Shown here: piece by piece, positions 12,612 through 20,233 of the stretch
Layout of the letters: each line of letters starts with the position of its first letter
How positions within the stretch are numbered: the stretch's first letter is position 1
Assembly: GCA_017938245.1 (NCBI GenBank)
Contig: JAGBBX010000048.1
Coordinates: 1 to 32,141, forward strand
Reading direction: 5' to 3'
Origin: Bacteroidaceae bacterium
Lineage (GTDB): Bacteria > Bacteroidota > Bacteroidia > Bacteroidales > Bacteroidaceae
Length of the DNA stretch: 32,141 nucleotides
The notes under the pieces: model-generated
What the model saw: only the letters and a program-made list of their open reading frames with translations
What the model was told of the DNA's origin: nothing
Databases searched by the model: none
Position numbers and translations under genes: made by a program

Positions 12612-12641
12612 CCTTTTTACCCCCTTTTACCCCCTTTTACG
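12612..12641 (-). repeat. Tandem 10-bp repeat at the flippase/M23 junction
   Basis: The minus strand reads TAAAAGGGGG twice and then TAAAAAGG. It covers the last codons and stop of the flippase gene and the upstream region of the M23 gene. Because the unit is not a multiple of three, copy-number change would alter the flippase C-terminus. Confidence 0.8.
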
Positions 12642-15396: not shown

Positions 15397-16401
15397 ATGA
15401 TATTTCTGTCAATAGTAATACCACACTACAATTTGCCACGCGAGCTATTAACACGTTGCGTGAAAAGCATTGTAGAGCAAGATATTACCCCCGACAGTTA
15501 CGAAATCATAGTAGTAGACGATGGTTCCGATGAGCCACCATATTGGCTCAGTGAGACCTTTGCCGACTACCCCGTATATCTTCACAAGATAAGCCATGCA
15601 GGACCCGGTGCAGCCCGCAACCGAGGCATCACCGAGGCACGCGGTCGCTATATACAGTTCATCGATGCCGACGACTGCCTGCAACCCAAGAGCCTTGCTC
15701 CTTGCCTGGACATCATACGCGAAGAACTGCCACAAGTATTCCGTTTCCACTATCGTATATGCACCGATGAGAGCAGTTTGTCGGGCCCAACCACTTCAAC
15801 GACAATAAAAACGAGCAACATAATCAGCGGTGCTGTATATATGGCCGAAAACAACCTCTCGGGCAGCCCCTGCACCTATATATTCGAGCGCAGTGTAGTA
15901 TTGAAACACAATATAGAGTTTGCAACCAACGTCTTTCACGAGGACGAAGAGTTCAATGTAAAGCTACACTATCACGCAACCAGCCTCATCGACAGCAATG
16001 CAGTAATCTACAACTATTGTTTGCGCCCCGGCTCGACAACATCAAGCAGCGACAAGAAGTTCGAAGAGAAGCGCCTCGACGACCTCTTCTCACTGCTCGA
16101 GCGCCTCACCCGCTTTCGCAAAAAACAAGAAGAGACAAGCAACAAGATACAGCGCAAGGCAATGAAGCGAAAAATGTCGATGCTCACCGTCGACACAATC
16201 CTTAATTTGTTATATAACAACGAGAGTGCCAAACAGATACACATACTATGCAAAGAGCGTCTGCATCCACTATCGCTCTATCCGCTGCCCTATCTTAGCC
16301 ACAGCATCAAATACATTCTATTCCGATTCTTGGCAAACAGCAAGATAGGTCTTACTATTCTTCGTCAAATAACACCAAACGAAAAACCTGCAAAAAGATG
16401 A
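15397..16401 (+). CDS. Family 2 glycosyltransferase
   Basis: A 334-residue GT2 enzyme. SIVIPHYN at the N-terminus, VVDDGSDEP (D41, D42), GPGAARNRGI and FIDADD (D90, D92, D93) form a complete donor-binding and metal site. The C-terminal part is basic and rich in Lys/Arg (about 225-255), possibly aiding membrane association. The stop overlaps the next gene's start as ATGA at 16398-16401, implying translational coupling. It probably adds a successive sugar in the same glycan as its neighbours. Specificity is unknown. Confidence 0.92.
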   Translation: MIFLSIVIPHYNLPRELLTRCVKSIVEQDITPDSYEIIVVDDGSDEPPYWLSETFADYPVYLHKISHAGPGAARNRGITEARGRYIQFIDADDCLQPKSLAPCLDIIREELPQVFRFHYRICTDESSLSGPTTSTTIKTSNIISGAVYMAENNLSGSPCTYIFERSVVLKHNIEFATNVFHEDEEFNVKLHYHATSLIDSNAVIYNYCLRPGSTTSSSDKKFEEKRLDDLFSLLERLTRFRKKQEETSNKIQRKAMKRKMSMLTVDTILNLLYNNESAKQIHILCKERLHPLSLYPLPYLSHSIKYILFRFLANSKIGLTILRQITPNEKPAKR

Positions 16402-17501
16402 AGATACTACTCATAGGCGAATACAGCAATGTCCATTGGACACTTGCCCAAGGACTTCGCAGCTTAGGGCACACCGTCTGCGTAGTCAGTAACGGCGATT
16501 TTTGGAAAGACTACAAGCGTGACATCTCACTTGTACGCAACAACTACACAAAATGGGGCGGCATAGAGTATCTTATAAAAACACTCTGCACCCTACCCCG
16601 TCTGCGTGGCTACGATATTGTGCAGCTGATAAACCCAATGTTCCTTGAGCTAAAAGCCGAGAAGATAGAAGCAATATACCGTTATCTGCGACAACACAAT
16701 AAAAAAATTTTCCTAGGCGCCTTTGGGATGGACGCTTTGTGGGTCGAGAGCGCCACTGCGACCCCTCGCGTGTTCCGCTACTCCGATTTTAATGTGGGAG
16801 ACAAAGAGATTCTCAATGACTACACACGAGAGCAGATAGCCGATTGGCAGAACACACCCAAAGCCCACCTTAACCACTACATTGCCAACGACTGCAACGG
16901 CATAATAGCAGGAATGTATGAGTACCACACAGCCTACAAAGAGAAATATACCCGAAAATTGACATACATTCCCTTTCCCATAGACATTGACAAAGAGCTA
17001 CAATTTACCCCATACGACGGCAAGCGCAAAGTGCGTTTCTTCATCGGCATACAAAAGAGCCGTAGCATATACAAAGGCACAGATATAATGTTACGTGCCC
17101 TTGAGCGCCTACACACCGGCTACCCCGACGAATGCGAGATACTAAAAGCCGAAAATATCCCGTTCGCCCAATACAGCAAGATGGTAGACGACTGCGACAT
17201 TCTCCTTGACCAGCTATATGGTTACTCTCCCGGAATGAACGCCCTGTTAGCCCTCTCAAAAGGCAAGATAGTCGTCGGTGGCGCCGAAGAGGAGTGTTAC
17301 GAGATATTAGGCGAACACGAACTCCGCCCAATGGTAAACGTAATCCCCGACGAAGAAGATGTATACAACAAACTACGTGAGATACTATTGAATAAAGAGC
17401 ATATTGCCACAATGCAGCGCGATAGTATCAGACTCATAGAGCGTCACCACCTACCCAGGAAAGTAGCACAAGCATATTTAGATTTTTGGGAAAGCAAATA
17501 A
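16398..17501 (+). CDS. GT-B fold glycosyltransferase (GT4-like)
   Basis: A 367-residue protein with an N-terminal Rossmann start KILLIGEYSNVHWTLAQGL, a central linker, and a C-terminal half containing SPGMNALLALSKGKIVVGG followed by EEECYEIL. This matches the acidic E-x7-E-like donor-binding region of GT-B retaining enzymes. The closing segment, LIERHHLPRKVAQAYLDFW, is typical of GT4 C-terminal helices. Its start overlaps the previous stop by 4 bp. A strong terminator lies right at its end (17500-17544), so it closes the operon. Exact family assignment is less certain than for the two GT2 genes. Confidence 0.82.
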   Translation: MKILLIGEYSNVHWTLAQGLRSLGHTVCVVSNGDFWKDYKRDISLVRNNYTKWGGIEYLIKTLCTLPRLRGYDIVQLINPMFLELKAEKIEAIYRYLRQHNKKIFLGAFGMDALWVESATATPRVFRYSDFNVGDKEILNDYTREQIADWQNTPKAHLNHYIANDCNGIIAGMYEYHTAYKEKYTRKLTYIPFPIDIDKELQFTPYDGKRKVRFFIGIQKSRSIYKGTDIMLRALERLHTGYPDECEILKAENIPFAQYSKMVDDCDILLDQLYGYSPGMNALLALSKGKIVVGGAEEECYEILGEHELRPMVNVIPDEEDVYNKLREILLNKEHIATMQRDSIRLIERHHLPRKVAQAYLDFWESK

Positions 17502-17574: not shown

Positions 17575-18858
17575 TCAAACTATAAATTTCAGCAAGAAGA
17601 AAACAGCAAGGATACACATACCTATGCTCACCTTCTTATACTTTCCACTAAGCAAATTTATAAATATATACGACAAGTGTCCAAGCACTATACCATCCGA
17701 AATACTATAGCATAGCGGCATAAACAGAATACAGATGAACGCAGGAATCGACTCGGAATAATCCGAGAAATTAACATTCAGCACCGAGCCCATCATCATT
17801 AGTCCCACCAATACAAGCACCGGTGTAGTAGCCGCAGCAGGGATAGCAAGGAACAGAGGCGACAAGAATAGCGCCAGCAAGAAGAAGAGACCCGTAGTAA
17901 ACGCTGTCAGTCCGCTTCGACCACCCTCGTTCACACCCGCAGCACTCTCGACATATACAGCCACAGTACTTGTACCCATCATAGCACCAACTGCGGTCGA
18001 AACAGAATCCACCATAAACACCTCCTTCAAACGTGGTATCTTACCATCTTTCACCATTCCCGCACGCTCGGTAACACCAATTACAGTACCTATACAATCG
18101 AACAGGTCGACAAAAAGTAATGTAAATACAATCACCAACATATCCTTAGTGAATATATTAGTCCACTCGAACTGCATAAATATTGGCTCAATACTAGGAG
18201 GAACACTCACAATACCATCAAAATTAGTTTCCCCAAGAGGAATACCCAATAGAGTAGTAAGAAGAATACCGAAGAGGAGCGCACCCTTGACATTTTTTAC
18301 AAGCAAGATAGATGTTACAGCAATACCTATTACACCCAACAGAGCCGAGCCGGTAGTAATATCACCAAGACTGACAAGCGTTGCAGGATTATCTACAATA
18401 ATATTAGCACTTTTCAGTCCAATAAAAGCTATATAAAGTCCTATACCCGCACTTATAGCCTTCTTAAGAGTATCGGGCAGAACATCCACAATTTTCTCGC
18501 GCAGGTTAGTGACAGTAAGCAAAATAAAAAGAAGTCCCTCCAAGAATACAGCCGTAAGTGCAAACTGCCACGAATATCCCATCACTGTACACACCGTATA
18601 GGCAAAAAAAGCATTCAATCCCATACCGGGTGCAAGAGCCAACGGCAATTTAGCATAAAGTCCCATAAAGATAGTAGAGATACCCGCCATTATTACAGTA
18701 GTGGTAAATAGCGCCCCTTTATCCATTCCCGTCTCGCTCAGAATATTGGGATTCACTGCCAAGATATAGGCCATAGTCAAGAAAGTCGTCAATCCCGCCA
18801 TAACCTCAGTGCGTATGGTAGTCTCCTTAGGATTGAAGCCAAACAATTTAGTCAACAT
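17575..18858 (-). CDS. NCS2 family purine permease (AzgA/PbuG-like)
   Basis: A 427-residue inner-membrane protein of the nucleobase-cation symporter 2 family, AzgA-like branch, expected to import adenine, guanine or hypoxanthine with protons. The N-terminus KETTIRTEVMAGLTTFLTMAYILAVNPNIL is the classic opening of this branch. LAPGMGLNAFFAYTVC and MGTSTVAVYVESAAGVNEGGRSGLTAFTTG are substrate-site segments conserved in it. About 12-14 hydrophobic segments span the protein and length is normal. It has a leader of about 120 nt if the TATCTTTG box at 18988-18995 is its promoter. No purine riboswitch signature was recognised there. It is convergent with the glycosyltransferase operon across a shared terminator. 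Confidence 0.93.
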   Translation of the reverse strand: MLTKLFGFNPKETTIRTEVMAGLTTFLTMAYILAVNPNILSETGMDKGALFTTTVIMAGISTIFMGLYAKLPLALAPGMGLNAFFAYTVCTVMGYSWQFALTAVFLEGLLFILLTVTNLREKIVDVLPDTLKKAISAGIGLYIAFIGLKSANIIVDNPATLVSLGDITTGSALLGVIGIAVTSILLVKNVKGALLFGILLTTLLGIPLGETNFDGIVSVPPSIEPIFMQFEWTNIFTKDMLVIVFTLLFVDLFDCIGTVIGVTERAGMVKDGKIPRLKEVFMVDSVSTAVGAMMGTSTVAVYVESAAGVNEGGRSGLTAFTTGLFFLLALFLSPLFLAIPAAATTPVLVLVGLMMMGSVLNVNFSDYSESIPAFICILFMPLCYSISDGIVLGHLSYIFINLLSGKYKKVSIGMCILAVFFLLKFIV

Positions 18859-19067: not shown

Positions 19068-19099
19068 AAAAAAAATTAGAACCTCATAGAGTCCTAACC
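19068..19099 (-). terminator. Terminator T1 of the tRNA-Glu array
   Basis: On the minus strand TTAGGAC and GTTCTAA form a 7-bp stem (one G-U pair) followed by eight T. It closes the whole array. Confidence 0.85.
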
Positions 19100-19103
19100 A
19101 AAG

Positions 19104-19181
19104 TAGCGCCTACGGGAATCGAACTCGTGTTCGTTACAAGATGATGAGTGAGAGGCGTGTGTCCTAGCACCATCATATAAC
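19104..19181 (-). pseudogene. Degenerate tRNA-Glu-like unit U1
   Basis: Read on the minus strand it starts GTTATATGATGGTGCTAGG, keeps CTCTCAC, carries the inserted TCATCATCTTGTAACG and ends in the T-arm and AGGCGCTA. The T-stem has an A-C mismatch (ACGAG against CCCGT). The 5' acceptor strand is gone, so charging as a tRNA is not expected. It could be a decayed copy or a small RNA. Confidence 0.85.
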
Positions 19182-19214
19182 AAAAAAAAATTAGAACCTC
19201 ATAGAGTCCTAACC
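19182..19214 (-). terminator. Terminator T2 of the tRNA-Glu array
   Basis: This has the same stem as T1 (TTAGGAC/GTTCTAA, loop TCTATGAG) with nine T, between units U2 and U1. Confidence 0.85.
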
Positions 19215-19218
19215 AAAG

Positions 19219-19296
19219 TAGCGCCTACGGGAATCGAACCCGTGTTCGTTACAAGATGATGAGTGAGAGGCGTGTGTCCTAGCACCATCATCTAAC
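19219..19296 (-). pseudogene. Degenerate tRNA-Glu-like unit U2
   Basis: It begins GTTAGATGATGGTGCTAGG on the minus strand and has an intact T-stem (ACGGG/CCCGT). AGATGATG pairs perfectly with CATCATCT of the inserted segment, replacing the tRNA 5' architecture. The acceptor 5' strand is absent. Confidence 0.85.
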
Positions 19297-19328
19297 AAAA
19301 AAAAATTAGAACCTTAATGGTTCTAACC
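19297..19328 (-). terminator. Terminator T3 of the tRNA-Glu array
   Basis: TTAGAACC and GGTTCTAA form a perfect 8-bp stem with nine T. Relative to T1/T2, the G-U pair has become A-U. Confidence 0.87.
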
Positions 19329-19332
19329 AAAG

Positions 19333-19410
19333 TAGCGCCTACGGGAATCGAACCCGTGTTCGTTACAAGACTATGAGTGAGAGGCGTGTGTCCTAGCACC
19401 ATCATATAAC
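19333..19410 (-). pseudogene. Degenerate tRNA-Glu-like unit U3
   Basis: It has the same plan as U2, but the 3' arm of the new hairpin reads CATAGTCT, which pairs poorly with ATATGATG. The T-arm is intact and the 5' acceptor strand is lost. This unit argues that the new hairpin is not strictly conserved. Confidence 0.82.
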
Positions 19411-19443
19411 AAAAAAAAAATTAGAACCTTAGTGGTTCTAACC
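19411..19443 (-). terminator. Terminator T4 of the tRNA-Glu array
   Basis: TTAGAACC/GGTTCTAA gives a perfect 8-bp stem with loop ACTAA or similar, followed by ten T. Confidence 0.87.
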
Positions 19444-19447
19444 AAAG

Positions 19448-19526
19448 TAGCGCCTACGGGAATCGAACCCGTGTTCTTTACAAGACGATGAGTGAGAGGC
19501 GTGGGCCACTAGCACCATCATCTAAC
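19448..19526 (-). pseudogene. Degenerate tRNA-Glu-like unit U4
   Basis: It starts GTTAGATGATGGTGCTAG and reads GTGGCCCACG where other units have GGACACACG. The 3' arm CATCGTCT still pairs with AGATGATG through one G-U pair. The T-arm is intact and the acceptor stem is lost. Confidence 0.82.
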
Positions 19527-19558
19527 AAAAAAAATTAGAACCTCATAGAGTCCTAACC
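19527..19558 (-). terminator. Terminator T5 of the tRNA-Glu array
   Basis: The stem is of T1 type (TTAGGAC/GTTCTAA) with eight T, located just after hybrid unit U5. Confidence 0.85.
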
Positions 19559-19562
19559 AAAG

Positions 19563-19644
19563 TAGCGCCTACGGGAATCGAACCCGTGTTCGTTACAAGA
19601 TGATGAGTGAGAGGCATATGTCCTAGCCACTAGACGAAAGCGCC
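19563..19644 (-). pseudogene. Hybrid tRNA-Glu unit U5 (intact 5' half, degenerate 3' half)
   Basis: The 5' half is that of an intact tRNA-Glu (GGCGCTTTCGTCTAGTGGC), so the acceptor and D-arms can form. The segment after CTCTCAC is the degenerate type, with TCATCATCTTGTAACG in place of GCATGG. Only about three central anticodon-stem pairs remain (TATGC against TCATC) and the variable region is about 10 nt longer. It is probably non-functional as a tRNA and looks like a recombinant between intact and degenerate copies. Confidence 0.85.
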
Positions 19645-19674
19645 AAATATTTATTTTAGAGTTTTTCTTTTTTG

Positions 19675-19752
19675 TAGCTCCTACGGGAATCGAACTCGTG
19701 TTCGTTACAAGATGATGAGTGAGAGGCGTGTGCCATAACACCATCATCTAAC
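19675..19752 (-). pseudogene. Degenerate tRNA-Glu-like unit U6
   Basis: It follows terminator T6 with no spacer and begins GTTAGATGATGGTGTTATGG. The new hairpin AGATGATG/CATCATCT is perfect. The T-stem carries the A-C mismatch and the 3' end reads AGGAGCTA instead of AGGCGCTA. Confidence 0.83.
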
Positions 19753-19784
19753 AAAAAAAATTAGAACCTTATATGGTTCTAACC
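19753..19784 (-). terminator. Terminator T6, directly after an intact tRNA-Glu
   Basis: TTAGAACC and GGTTCTAA form a perfect stem around ATATA, followed by eight T, starting 4 nt after the mature 3' end of the intact tRNA at 19789-19860. It is probably the true terminator of the functional tRNA transcript. Confidence 0.9.
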
Positions 19785-19788
19785 GAAG

Positions 19789-19860
19789 TAGCGCCTACGG
19801 GAATCGAACCCGTGTTCCATGCGTGAGAGGCATGTGTCCTAGCCACTAGACGAAAGCGCC
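19789..19860 (-). tRNA. tRNA-Glu (anticodon CTC), copy B
   Basis: A 72-nt cloverleaf identical to the copy at 19986-20057. The acceptor is GGCGCTT/AGGCGCT with G1-U72, the anticodon stem CATGC/GCATG holds loop CTCTCAC, and the T-arm is ACGGG-TTCGATT-CCCGT with discriminator A. CCA is not encoded. It reads GAG codons. Terminator T6 follows at once. Confidence 0.95.
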
Positions 19861-19891
19861 AAATATTTATTTTAGAGTTTTTCTACTTTTG

Positions 19892-19962
19892 TAGCACCTA
19901 CGGGAATCGAACTCGTGTTCGTTACAAGATGATGAGTGAGAGACGTGTGTCCTAGCACCATC
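19892..19962 (-). pseudogene. Degenerate tRNA-Glu-like unit U8
   Basis: It lies between the two intact tRNA-Glu genes. It starts AGATGGTGCTAGG with no GTTA lead, so the new hairpin is shortened. It has the A-C T-stem mismatch, ACGTCTCTCAC at the anticodon region, and AGGTGCTA at the 3' end. It must be carried in any transcript that runs from copy A to copy B. Confidence 0.83.
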
Positions 19963-19985
19963 TTTTTCCCATATTTGCTTTTTTG

Positions 19986-20057
19986 TAGCGCCTACGGGAA
20001 TCGAACCCGTGTTCCATGCGTGAGAGGCATGTGTCCTAGCCACTAGACGAAAGCGCC
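19986..20057 (-). tRNA. tRNA-Glu (anticodon CTC), copy A
   Basis: A 72-nt intact tRNA with acceptor GGCGCTT/AGGCGCT (G1-U72), D-arm GTCTAGTGGCTAGGAC, anticodon stem CATGC/GCATG with CTC at positions 34-36, T-arm ACGGG/CCCGT and discriminator A. CCA is not encoded. It lies 23 bp downstream of tRNA-Ser in the same orientation and probably shares its promoter. Confidence 0.95.
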
Positions 20058-20080
20058 AAATCTCTGTAGCAAATTAAGAG

Positions 20081-20167
20081 CGGAAGCTGGGGGATTCGAA
20101 CCCCCGGTACGGTTACCCGTACGGCAGTTTAGCAAACTGCTGGTTTCAGCCACTCACCCAAACTTCC
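20081..20167 (-). tRNA. tRNA-Ser (anticodon GCT)
   Basis: An 87-nt class II tRNA with acceptor GGAAGTT/AGCTTCC and discriminator G, as expected for serine. The anticodon stem GCAGT/ACTGC has loop TTGCTAA giving GCT. The long variable arm CGTACGGGTAACCGTAC and T-arm GGGGG-TTCGAAT-CCCCC are complete. CCA is not encoded. It is the first gene after the promoter at 20202-20233. Confidence 0.96.
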
Positions 20168-20201: not shown

Positions 20202-20233
20202 CAAAGGTAGTGTTCTTTTTTTAATCCTGCAAA
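20202..20233 (-). promoter_or_regulatory. Promoter of the tRNA-Ser/tRNA-Glu array
   Basis: On the minus strand TTTG (20233-20230) and TACCTTTG (20209-20202) are separated by 20 bp, a full match to the Bacteroidota consensus. It lies about 35 bp upstream of mature tRNA-Ser. It is the only full-consensus promoter I could find for the array. Confidence 0.82.

Follow-up and report, generated by a model that had tools for sequence, protein, structure and literature searches.

A tRNA-Glu-derived array in a Bacteroidaceae genome as a probable counterpart of the tRNA-linked repeats of E. coli

Why would a tRNA operon carry a run of altered tRNA copies between and behind its genes? The question is raised by a 32,141-nt stretch of DNA from a Bacteroidaceae bacterium (contig JAGBBX010000048.1 of assembly GCA_017938245.1), called the window below. 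Nine units derived from tRNA-Glu(CTC), each bearing a T-arm, lie in it at 19103-20057, all on the minus strand and 3' of a tRNA-Ser(GCT) gene. A sequence-only reading of the window had rightly reported nine such units on one strand, and had offered three explanations for them: decaying tRNA duplications, a tRNA-like small-RNA family, or a sponge for tRNA-processing factors. The second fits best, and specifically as a locus of tRNA-linked repeats (TLRs) like those known from Escherichia coli. We consider it probable, somewhat beyond an even call, that the array is the Bacteroidales counterpart of those repeats: that it is transcribed with the tRNA operon, that the copied tail of each unit is a 3' processing signal, and that the array grew by unequal recombination.

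The array and its operon

Judged from their sequence, the units are short non-coding pieces directly behind tRNA genes of the operon, each ending in the 3' end of that tRNA; in type A units, the kind found in the window, the remainder is assembled from tRNA-Glu pieces as well. The array holds two intact tRNA-Glu(CTC) genes, one chimera, six degenerate units and six terminator hairpins. Tandem Repeats Finder gives it a period of 115 (6.6 copies, score 1044), which agrees with the repeat of about 115 bp first described, although actual unit-to-unit spacings run from 94 to 115 bp and are mostly 114-115. Three tRNA-Glu(CTC) genes are called here, by ARAGORN and by Rfam alike. Two are the intact genes (60.9 bits each), as the sequence-only reading had it; the third, which that reading did not count as a tRNA, is the chimera (45.5 bits), whose anticodon stem is mismatched. 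Automatic annotation would count it as a third tRNA-Glu, and such counts call for caution. The remaining six of the nine units are detected by neither program and do not make a complete cloverleaf. Their T-arm had been described as preserved, and this holds for three of the six; in the other three the 5' strand of the T-stem is altered (ACGAG for ACGGG).

Read 5' to 3' along the minus strand, the locus begins at 20202..20233 with a pattern match to TTTG ... TAnnTTTG, which we take to be a Bacteroidetes-type promoter motif; the pattern has five matches in the window against 1.85 expected, and five were reached by 2 of 100 shuffles. The first gene of the operon, tRNA-Ser(GCT), follows at 20080..20167 (ARAGORN, Rfam), and then the first intact tRNA-Glu(CTC) at 19985..20057, a type A unit at 19891..19979 whose 5' head (AGCAAATATGGGAA) pairs with its tail (TTCCCGTAGGTGCT) in a predicted three-way junction (z = -5.0), and the second intact tRNA-Glu(CTC) at 19788..19860. 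Behind this gene stands the first terminator hairpin (GGTTAGAACC...GGTTCTAA with a T run, 19753..19784; scan and pattern).

The distal part of the array opens with a type A unit that has no head, a changed T-stem (ACGAG) and no terminator 3' of it (19674..19749). The chimera comes next (19562..19644), joining the 5' half of an intact tRNA-Glu to a unit-type 3' half with the insert TCATCATCTTGTAACGA and an intact T-arm, and is followed by a second terminator (TTAGGACT...GGTTCTAA, 19527..19556; pattern), in which pairing is preserved through G-U. Four more headless type A units then alternate with terminators. Those at 19447..19523, 19332..19408 and 19218..19293 have intact T-stems, the middle one with hairpin arms mismatched in part, and are followed by terminators at 19419..19443 (scan), 19304..19328 (scan) and 19183..19212 (pattern); the last, at 19103..19178, has the ACGAG change and a single arm mismatch, and the array ends at the sixth terminator, 19068..19097 (pattern). 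Terminators with T runs are thus found 3' of the second intact tRNA-Glu, the chimera and the four distal units; the total of six combines reading of the sequence with the scan (three listed on the array strand) and the pattern (four listed). The terminators, the promoter motif and the pairing of head and tail in 19891-19979 are features beyond those described before.

Most likely the tRNA operon and the units share a transcript, in which the copied tail is the place of cutting. Transcription of the proximal unit together with the tRNAs would start from the promoter upstream of tRNA-Ser, and the enzymes that mature tRNA 3' ends would cut at the copied tail and release RNAs of about 75-90 nt. 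The likeliest role of such RNAs would be that of a by-product or a weak regulator whose level tracks tRNA transcription. The array itself would have been enlarged, and partly homogenised, by unequal recombination among units and with the intact tRNA-Glu genes, of which the chimera at 19562-19644 may be a trace.

Among the tRNA genes found in the incomplete genome of the window, Glu(CTC) occurs at this locus only, and a single tRNA-Glu(TTC) lies elsewhere. Non-intact 3'-end repeats were seen behind the two Glu(CTC) entries only, out of 27 distinct tRNA entries, in a check that covered 98-800 bp downstream of 30 of 46 tRNA places.

Predicted fold and its possible constraint

Units with a 5' head are called headed here. 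The window holds one (19891-19979), five headless units and the chimera. In headed units the head, AGC...TACGG, is predicted to pair with the tail, CCGTA...GCT, in stems P0 and P1, and the tail strand of these stems is the former 3' strand of the T-stem together with the acceptor 3' strand of tRNA-Glu. The piece from the D-loop to the anticodon loop is predicted to form a hairpin, P2, lengthened by non-tRNA arms. In P3, CGAAC is predicted to pair with GTTCG, turning the T-loop into a stem and the old 5' strand of the T-stem into a loop. All 17 headed units have at least four of the five P1 pairs and no T-stem pairs in their predicted folds, P3 is present in 15 of the 17, and each of them loses 4.2-13.1 kcal/mol when such T-stem pairs as remain are imposed. 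Headless units, the chimera included, keep and form the T-stem in 5 of the 8 scored; a ninth, from G009, could not be scored. The RNA of a headed unit is therefore predicted to be a three-way junction rather than a tRNA, with probable formation of P1 and P3 and with P2 arms that are unproven.

The same pieces could be left over from neutral decay. On that account a tRNA-Glu copy was rearranged once, and tandem duplication and gene conversion then spread it and preserved its tRNA-like pieces, with no RNA function. Where the units changed away from tRNA-Glu bears on this directly. An alignment of 15 headed units, restricted to its tRNA-derived columns and with four ambiguous ones excluded, shows 5 of 75 possible changes at columns paired in the junction, against 17 of 75 where the columns are unpaired (p = 0.0099); the junction, it must be said against the test, was derived from the same sequences. 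Scored by cloverleaf pairing, the same changes show no bias (13/78 against 9/72, p = 0.50). Of the five changes at junction-paired columns, two keep the pair through G-U and three break it, and two of these three belong to one decaying unit (L041). Because the changes avoid junction-paired but not cloverleaf-paired positions, the headed units look like more than random decay. Every one of the 17 headed units has a changed 5' strand of the former T-stem, itself tRNA-derived, but among 15 aligned rows a single one is altered in the adjacent T-loop strand, and this contrast indicates that gene conversion alone is insufficient.

Other measures bear on the junction with varying outcomes. Paired cells amounted to 93.5%, against 35-47% when the partners were slid, and a value as high came up in 2 of 500 shuffles; covariation was weak (score 0.077, as high in 11 of 500). 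Divergence was 0.00-0.10 in P0, P1, P3 and the apical stem and 0.17-0.63 in several loops. As read by eye from the alignment, G063, G064 and the window's headed unit each mend an A-C mismatch of the apical stem in a way of their own. Whole-unit z-scores were strong in the window's genome, G000 (-5.0), and in G018 (-3.8). The complement of head and tail was individually unusual in G018 (11 of 1000 shuffles) and in a unit of another type, type B, in G022 (34 of 1000), among 12 units tested.

Several results weigh against constraint of the fold. The other eight of the ten units given z-scores reached only -0.4 to -1.6, and the head-tail complement was not individually unusual in the remaining units of the 12. 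Two-sided changes occurred in 4 cells, a number reached by 42 of 500 shuffles, and RNAalifold omitted the arms, gave a covariation term of 0.05 and found no two-sided change. The unpaired columns 41-47, 75-78 and 84-86 are as little diverged (0.04-0.07) as the stems, and the P2 arms diverge strongly (0.26 and 0.13). When P2 arms were swapped between species the energy hardly moved (native -10.47, swapped -10.41 kcal/mol; 8760 of 20000 permutations as low), and when arms were shuffled in ten units the native arms were no better (fraction as low 0.27-0.95). In the window, five of the six degenerate units have no head, and two of the four distal units have mismatched arms.

Neutral decay draws on the negative arm-swap and arm-shuffle tests, on the mismatched arms of the distal headless units and on the chimera. 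It has to be taken seriously as a rival, most of all where the window genome's distal headless copies are concerned, which may be drifting; the earlier suggestion of decaying tRNA duplications fits some of those copies. As an account of the whole array, set against the pattern of changes in the headed units, we regard it as possible but rather unlikely.

Distribution in the genus and the copied tail

The search covered 44 genomes of the window's genus, metagenome-assembled genomes (MAGs) among them, labelled G0xx here, with the window's own as G000. Type A units or remnants of them occur in 11 of the 44, as headed units in G000, G006, G018, G019, G029, G030, G035, G063 and G064 and as damaged units only in G009 and G025; G035 has five units, on a contig that ends inside the array. 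The same non-tRNA segments recur in these 11 genomes and the changes in headed units follow the new predicted fold, which bears out the earlier proposal that the units are one expanded family. Units lie between or behind tRNA-Glu genes of the same operon, in the order Ser-Glu-unit-Glu in the window and in relatives, save for one damaged unit in G064 (C36) with no tRNA-Glu within the 1.8 kb examined. An assembly artefact, which had been raised as a concern, is unlikely, given that further MAGs of this genus have units in that operon too.

Across the order, a covariance model of headed units, R1, was run on a sample of 393 genomes, under stricter filters and with a model of low information; it matched the genome of the window and none of the other 392. 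R1 gives 84.8 bits to the headed unit at 19891-19979, which was in its training set, and 44.1 bits to each of the two intact tRNA-Glu genes of the window genome. A pattern scan across 84,980 species returned six stretches, all from MAGs under the title Bacteroidaceae or Bacteroidales; the gut of roe deer, sheep, water buffalo or goat was the source of five. A viral origin was considered and rejected, with 0 exact matches to the unit pattern in viral contigs.

Within the genus the distribution is patchy, a point in favour of neutral decay. On a NadC tree of 40 genomes, which is without the type A carrier G006, whose NadC was not recovered, type A requires 8 changes with all rows, or 6 after genomes whose tRNA-Glu locus is missing or cut were excluded by hand. 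The clustering of type A labels on the tree does not exceed that of shuffled labels (130 of 500 as low). No type A unit was seen in the stretches examined of G034, G066 and G008, near relatives on the tree, where the contig of G008 stops within the tRNA run. The damaged copies in G009, G025 and at G064:C36 likewise favour decay.

What argues in the other direction is that unrelated modules stand at the same place with the same tail. Type B units are found behind the same tRNA genes in G022 and G032, with a diverged copy in G036, and type C units in G006, G019, G029 and G062, with further type C arrays close to contig ends in G021 and G035. Their interiors are not tRNA-like and, among the matches listed, match many places across the genus. 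That unrelated interiors keep one tail is not what neutral decay of a tRNA-Glu copy would lead one to expect. In type C, 17 nt are common with tRNA-Glu (positions 58-73 and the next C) in 8 of 8 listed copies, and in type B 16 nt (59-73 and C) in 4 of 4; the positions are ours, on the assumption of standard tRNA numbering. CCA is not encoded in these type B and C tails. The listing selects on the last bases of the tail, so that its informative point is where identity begins, and one chance base match could make the difference between a start at 58 and one at 59, which are not distinguishable. The tail pattern was run on part of the loci, and copies whose tail has changed escape it (one in G032 and those in G036). 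Type A tails share mostly 22-23 nt with tRNA-Glu, and 30 nt in four window copies, the chimera included, and in L092; a single substitution is present in two window units, and identity is interrupted in five other copies (13, 1, 2, 17 and 21 nt).

The interiors of types B and C are repeats in their own right. That of type B (hairpins TGAAGC-TAAA-GCTTCA and AACGC...GCGTT; L067, L069, L101, L102) is dispersed through the genus, and type C (GATTGACAACGCTTGC...GCAAGC.TTGTC; L031, L034, L038, L094, L206, L207) is a dispersed hairpin repeat that is locally tandem. Among the matches listed, queries with the two types, both of which contained the tRNA tail, found matches in 35 and 37 of the 44 genomes respectively, mostly through the interior and away from tRNA-Glu. 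G028 alone has 90 candidate type B places, and all 20 that were scored match.

This dispersal invites a comparison with REP-like mobile hairpins, hairpin modules that a single-strand transposase would insert where the tRNA ends, type A being a tRNA-derived one. The rtT-like elements of E. coli belong to the BIMEs, according to PMC2965389, and would be a parallel to types B and C, whose interiors are likewise dispersed hairpin repeats. Type A differs, being limited to tRNA-Glu operons apart from the damaged copy in G064, and a Y1 transposase (Y1_Tnp) was found in 5 of the 44 genomes, among which there are incomplete MAGs, and not in that of the window. Mobile hairpins are an improbable source of the array on these grounds.

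The start of the tail in the T-loop bears on a further possibility, that integrative elements have left scars here. Tyrosine integrases whose crossover falls in the T-loop, of the kind reportedly described by Williams in 2002, would leave copies of tRNA 3' ends behind the tRNA gene, and the units would be minimal or decayed elements. Partial tRNA copies that derive from integration, lying beside an intact tRNA as here, are common in prokaryotes according to PMC9897764, where an element several kilobases long separates the copy from the tRNA. The units of the array stand in tandem instead, several between tRNA genes, about 100 bp apart and with no element body. No gene fits into a unit, whose length is about 90-115 bp; no integrase was recognised by eye among the open reading frames listed for the window and three relatives, with no family search made; and type A also contains the 5' side of the tRNA. 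We think integration scars quite unlikely.

Likeness to the repeats of E. coli

The tRNA-linked repeats of E. coli offer the closest comparison. They were first described in 1978 and have no known function according to PMC8144298, an early functional claim for the tyrT repeat having been retracted. Examples are the repeats at tyrT-tyrV (rttR), argV-argQ and proK, and rrA, rrB and rrF. They lie in tRNA or rRNA operons behind a stable-RNA gene, one to several per locus, and their last 18-19 bp, CCA included, exactly repeat the 3' end of the stable RNA encoded upstream; the repeats rrA, rrB and rrF are transcribed and processed into discrete RNAs (PMC8144298). The present units share the position directly behind stable-RNA genes, the lack of coding sequence and the number per locus (six degenerate units and the chimera in the window), and their transcription in the same operon would be a further likeness. 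The distal window units lie behind a first terminator, much as rrB lies between two terminators in that source.

E. coli K-12 was used as a control. Eight distinct repeats were found behind tyr, arg and pro tRNAs, sharing 19 nt (seven repeats) or 18 nt (one) with the tRNA; the shared part runs to position 76, takes in the encoded CCA and starts at 58 or 59, so that the copied tail begins at 58/59 in both phyla. Copied tails were found in three of the seven E. coli stretches L208-L214 and not in L210, L212, L213 or L214, by a test that is blind to a 5S repeat overlapping the gene end. At tyrT-tyrV (NC_000913.3, L208) all four distinct repeats have, upstream, a P1-like complement to the copied tail (GGGGAAGGAT), 10 bp long in three repeats (0-3 of 1000 shuffles) and 8 bp in one (79 of 1000); among three arg repeats and one pro repeat only the one behind argV has such a complement (8 bp, 14 of 1000).

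There are differences as well. The array belongs to another phylum, its type A interior is tRNA-derived and predicted to be refolded, it has six terminators, and its period is 94-115 bp, shorter than the 175-178 bp of tyrT/tyrV and the 133-168 bp found for the arg and pro repeats. The Rfam family RtT, described in PMC4986893 as a by-product of tRNA operons, shares the operon setting and gave no match above its gathering score in the window, nor to E = 1 in seven relative loci, so the array is called a counterpart of the E. coli repeats and not a shown homologue. Another RNA from a tRNA operon is 3'ETS-leuZ of E. coli, which PMC8144298 reports as released from the operon and pairing with the small RNAs RyhB and RybB. 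Release of the present RNAs, if it takes place, would make them alike in this respect; 3'ETS-leuZ is a trailer, however, with no copied tRNA 3' end found at its locus (L213) by the test used on E. coli. A Bacteroidales case of such repeats was not found in listings of the open-licence PMC literature, which does not establish its absence from print.

Two other identities were tried and rejected. A known RNA family was one: only tRNA scored above the gathering threshold of Rfam in the window, and the seven relative loci, to E = 1, gave only tRNA, sub-threshold overlaps of tRNA-Ser and weak matches to mir-8186 and to tmRNA ends. A protein-coding repeat was the other, as a period of 114-115 bp, which most window units have, does not keep the reading frame. 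In G018 (L040, 3-611), where the unit is 93 bp long, one frame is open across the repeats, with the peptide KSKYGKNKWLGHMPLTPCFFTNTSSIPVGAT, which recalls the tpr frame in the E. coli tyrT repeats.

Tentatively, and with less assurance than for the array itself, the comparison might be extended to a recurrent class of bacterial RNA, found in distant phyla and not confined to enterobacteria, in which a hairpin module is joined, behind a tRNA gene, to a second copy of the tRNA from 58/59 to its 3' end, and the tail is retained because it acts as a portable signal for 3' maturation. In this genus one of the modules would be a refolded tRNA-Glu in a three-way junction, tRNA pieces re-used in another predicted fold. 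If this is true, a module of either origin, tRNA or REP-like, would become through the tail a stable small RNA that follows tRNA transcription. The array distinguishes constant features (the place in the operon and the tail) from the module, which is free to vary, and since tails start at the same point while interiors differ across phyla, the copied tail is the part to test.

Two observations concern the surroundings. A convergent gene adjacent to the array in L037, L040 and L094 resembles, by eye, the glycosyltransferase-like gene at 16398-17501 of the window, and these three relatives are without the permease-like gene that intervenes in the window (17575-18858). Elsewhere in the window, at 12615-12640, Tandem Repeats Finder lists a short tandem repeat, TTTTACCCCC, in 2.6 copies.

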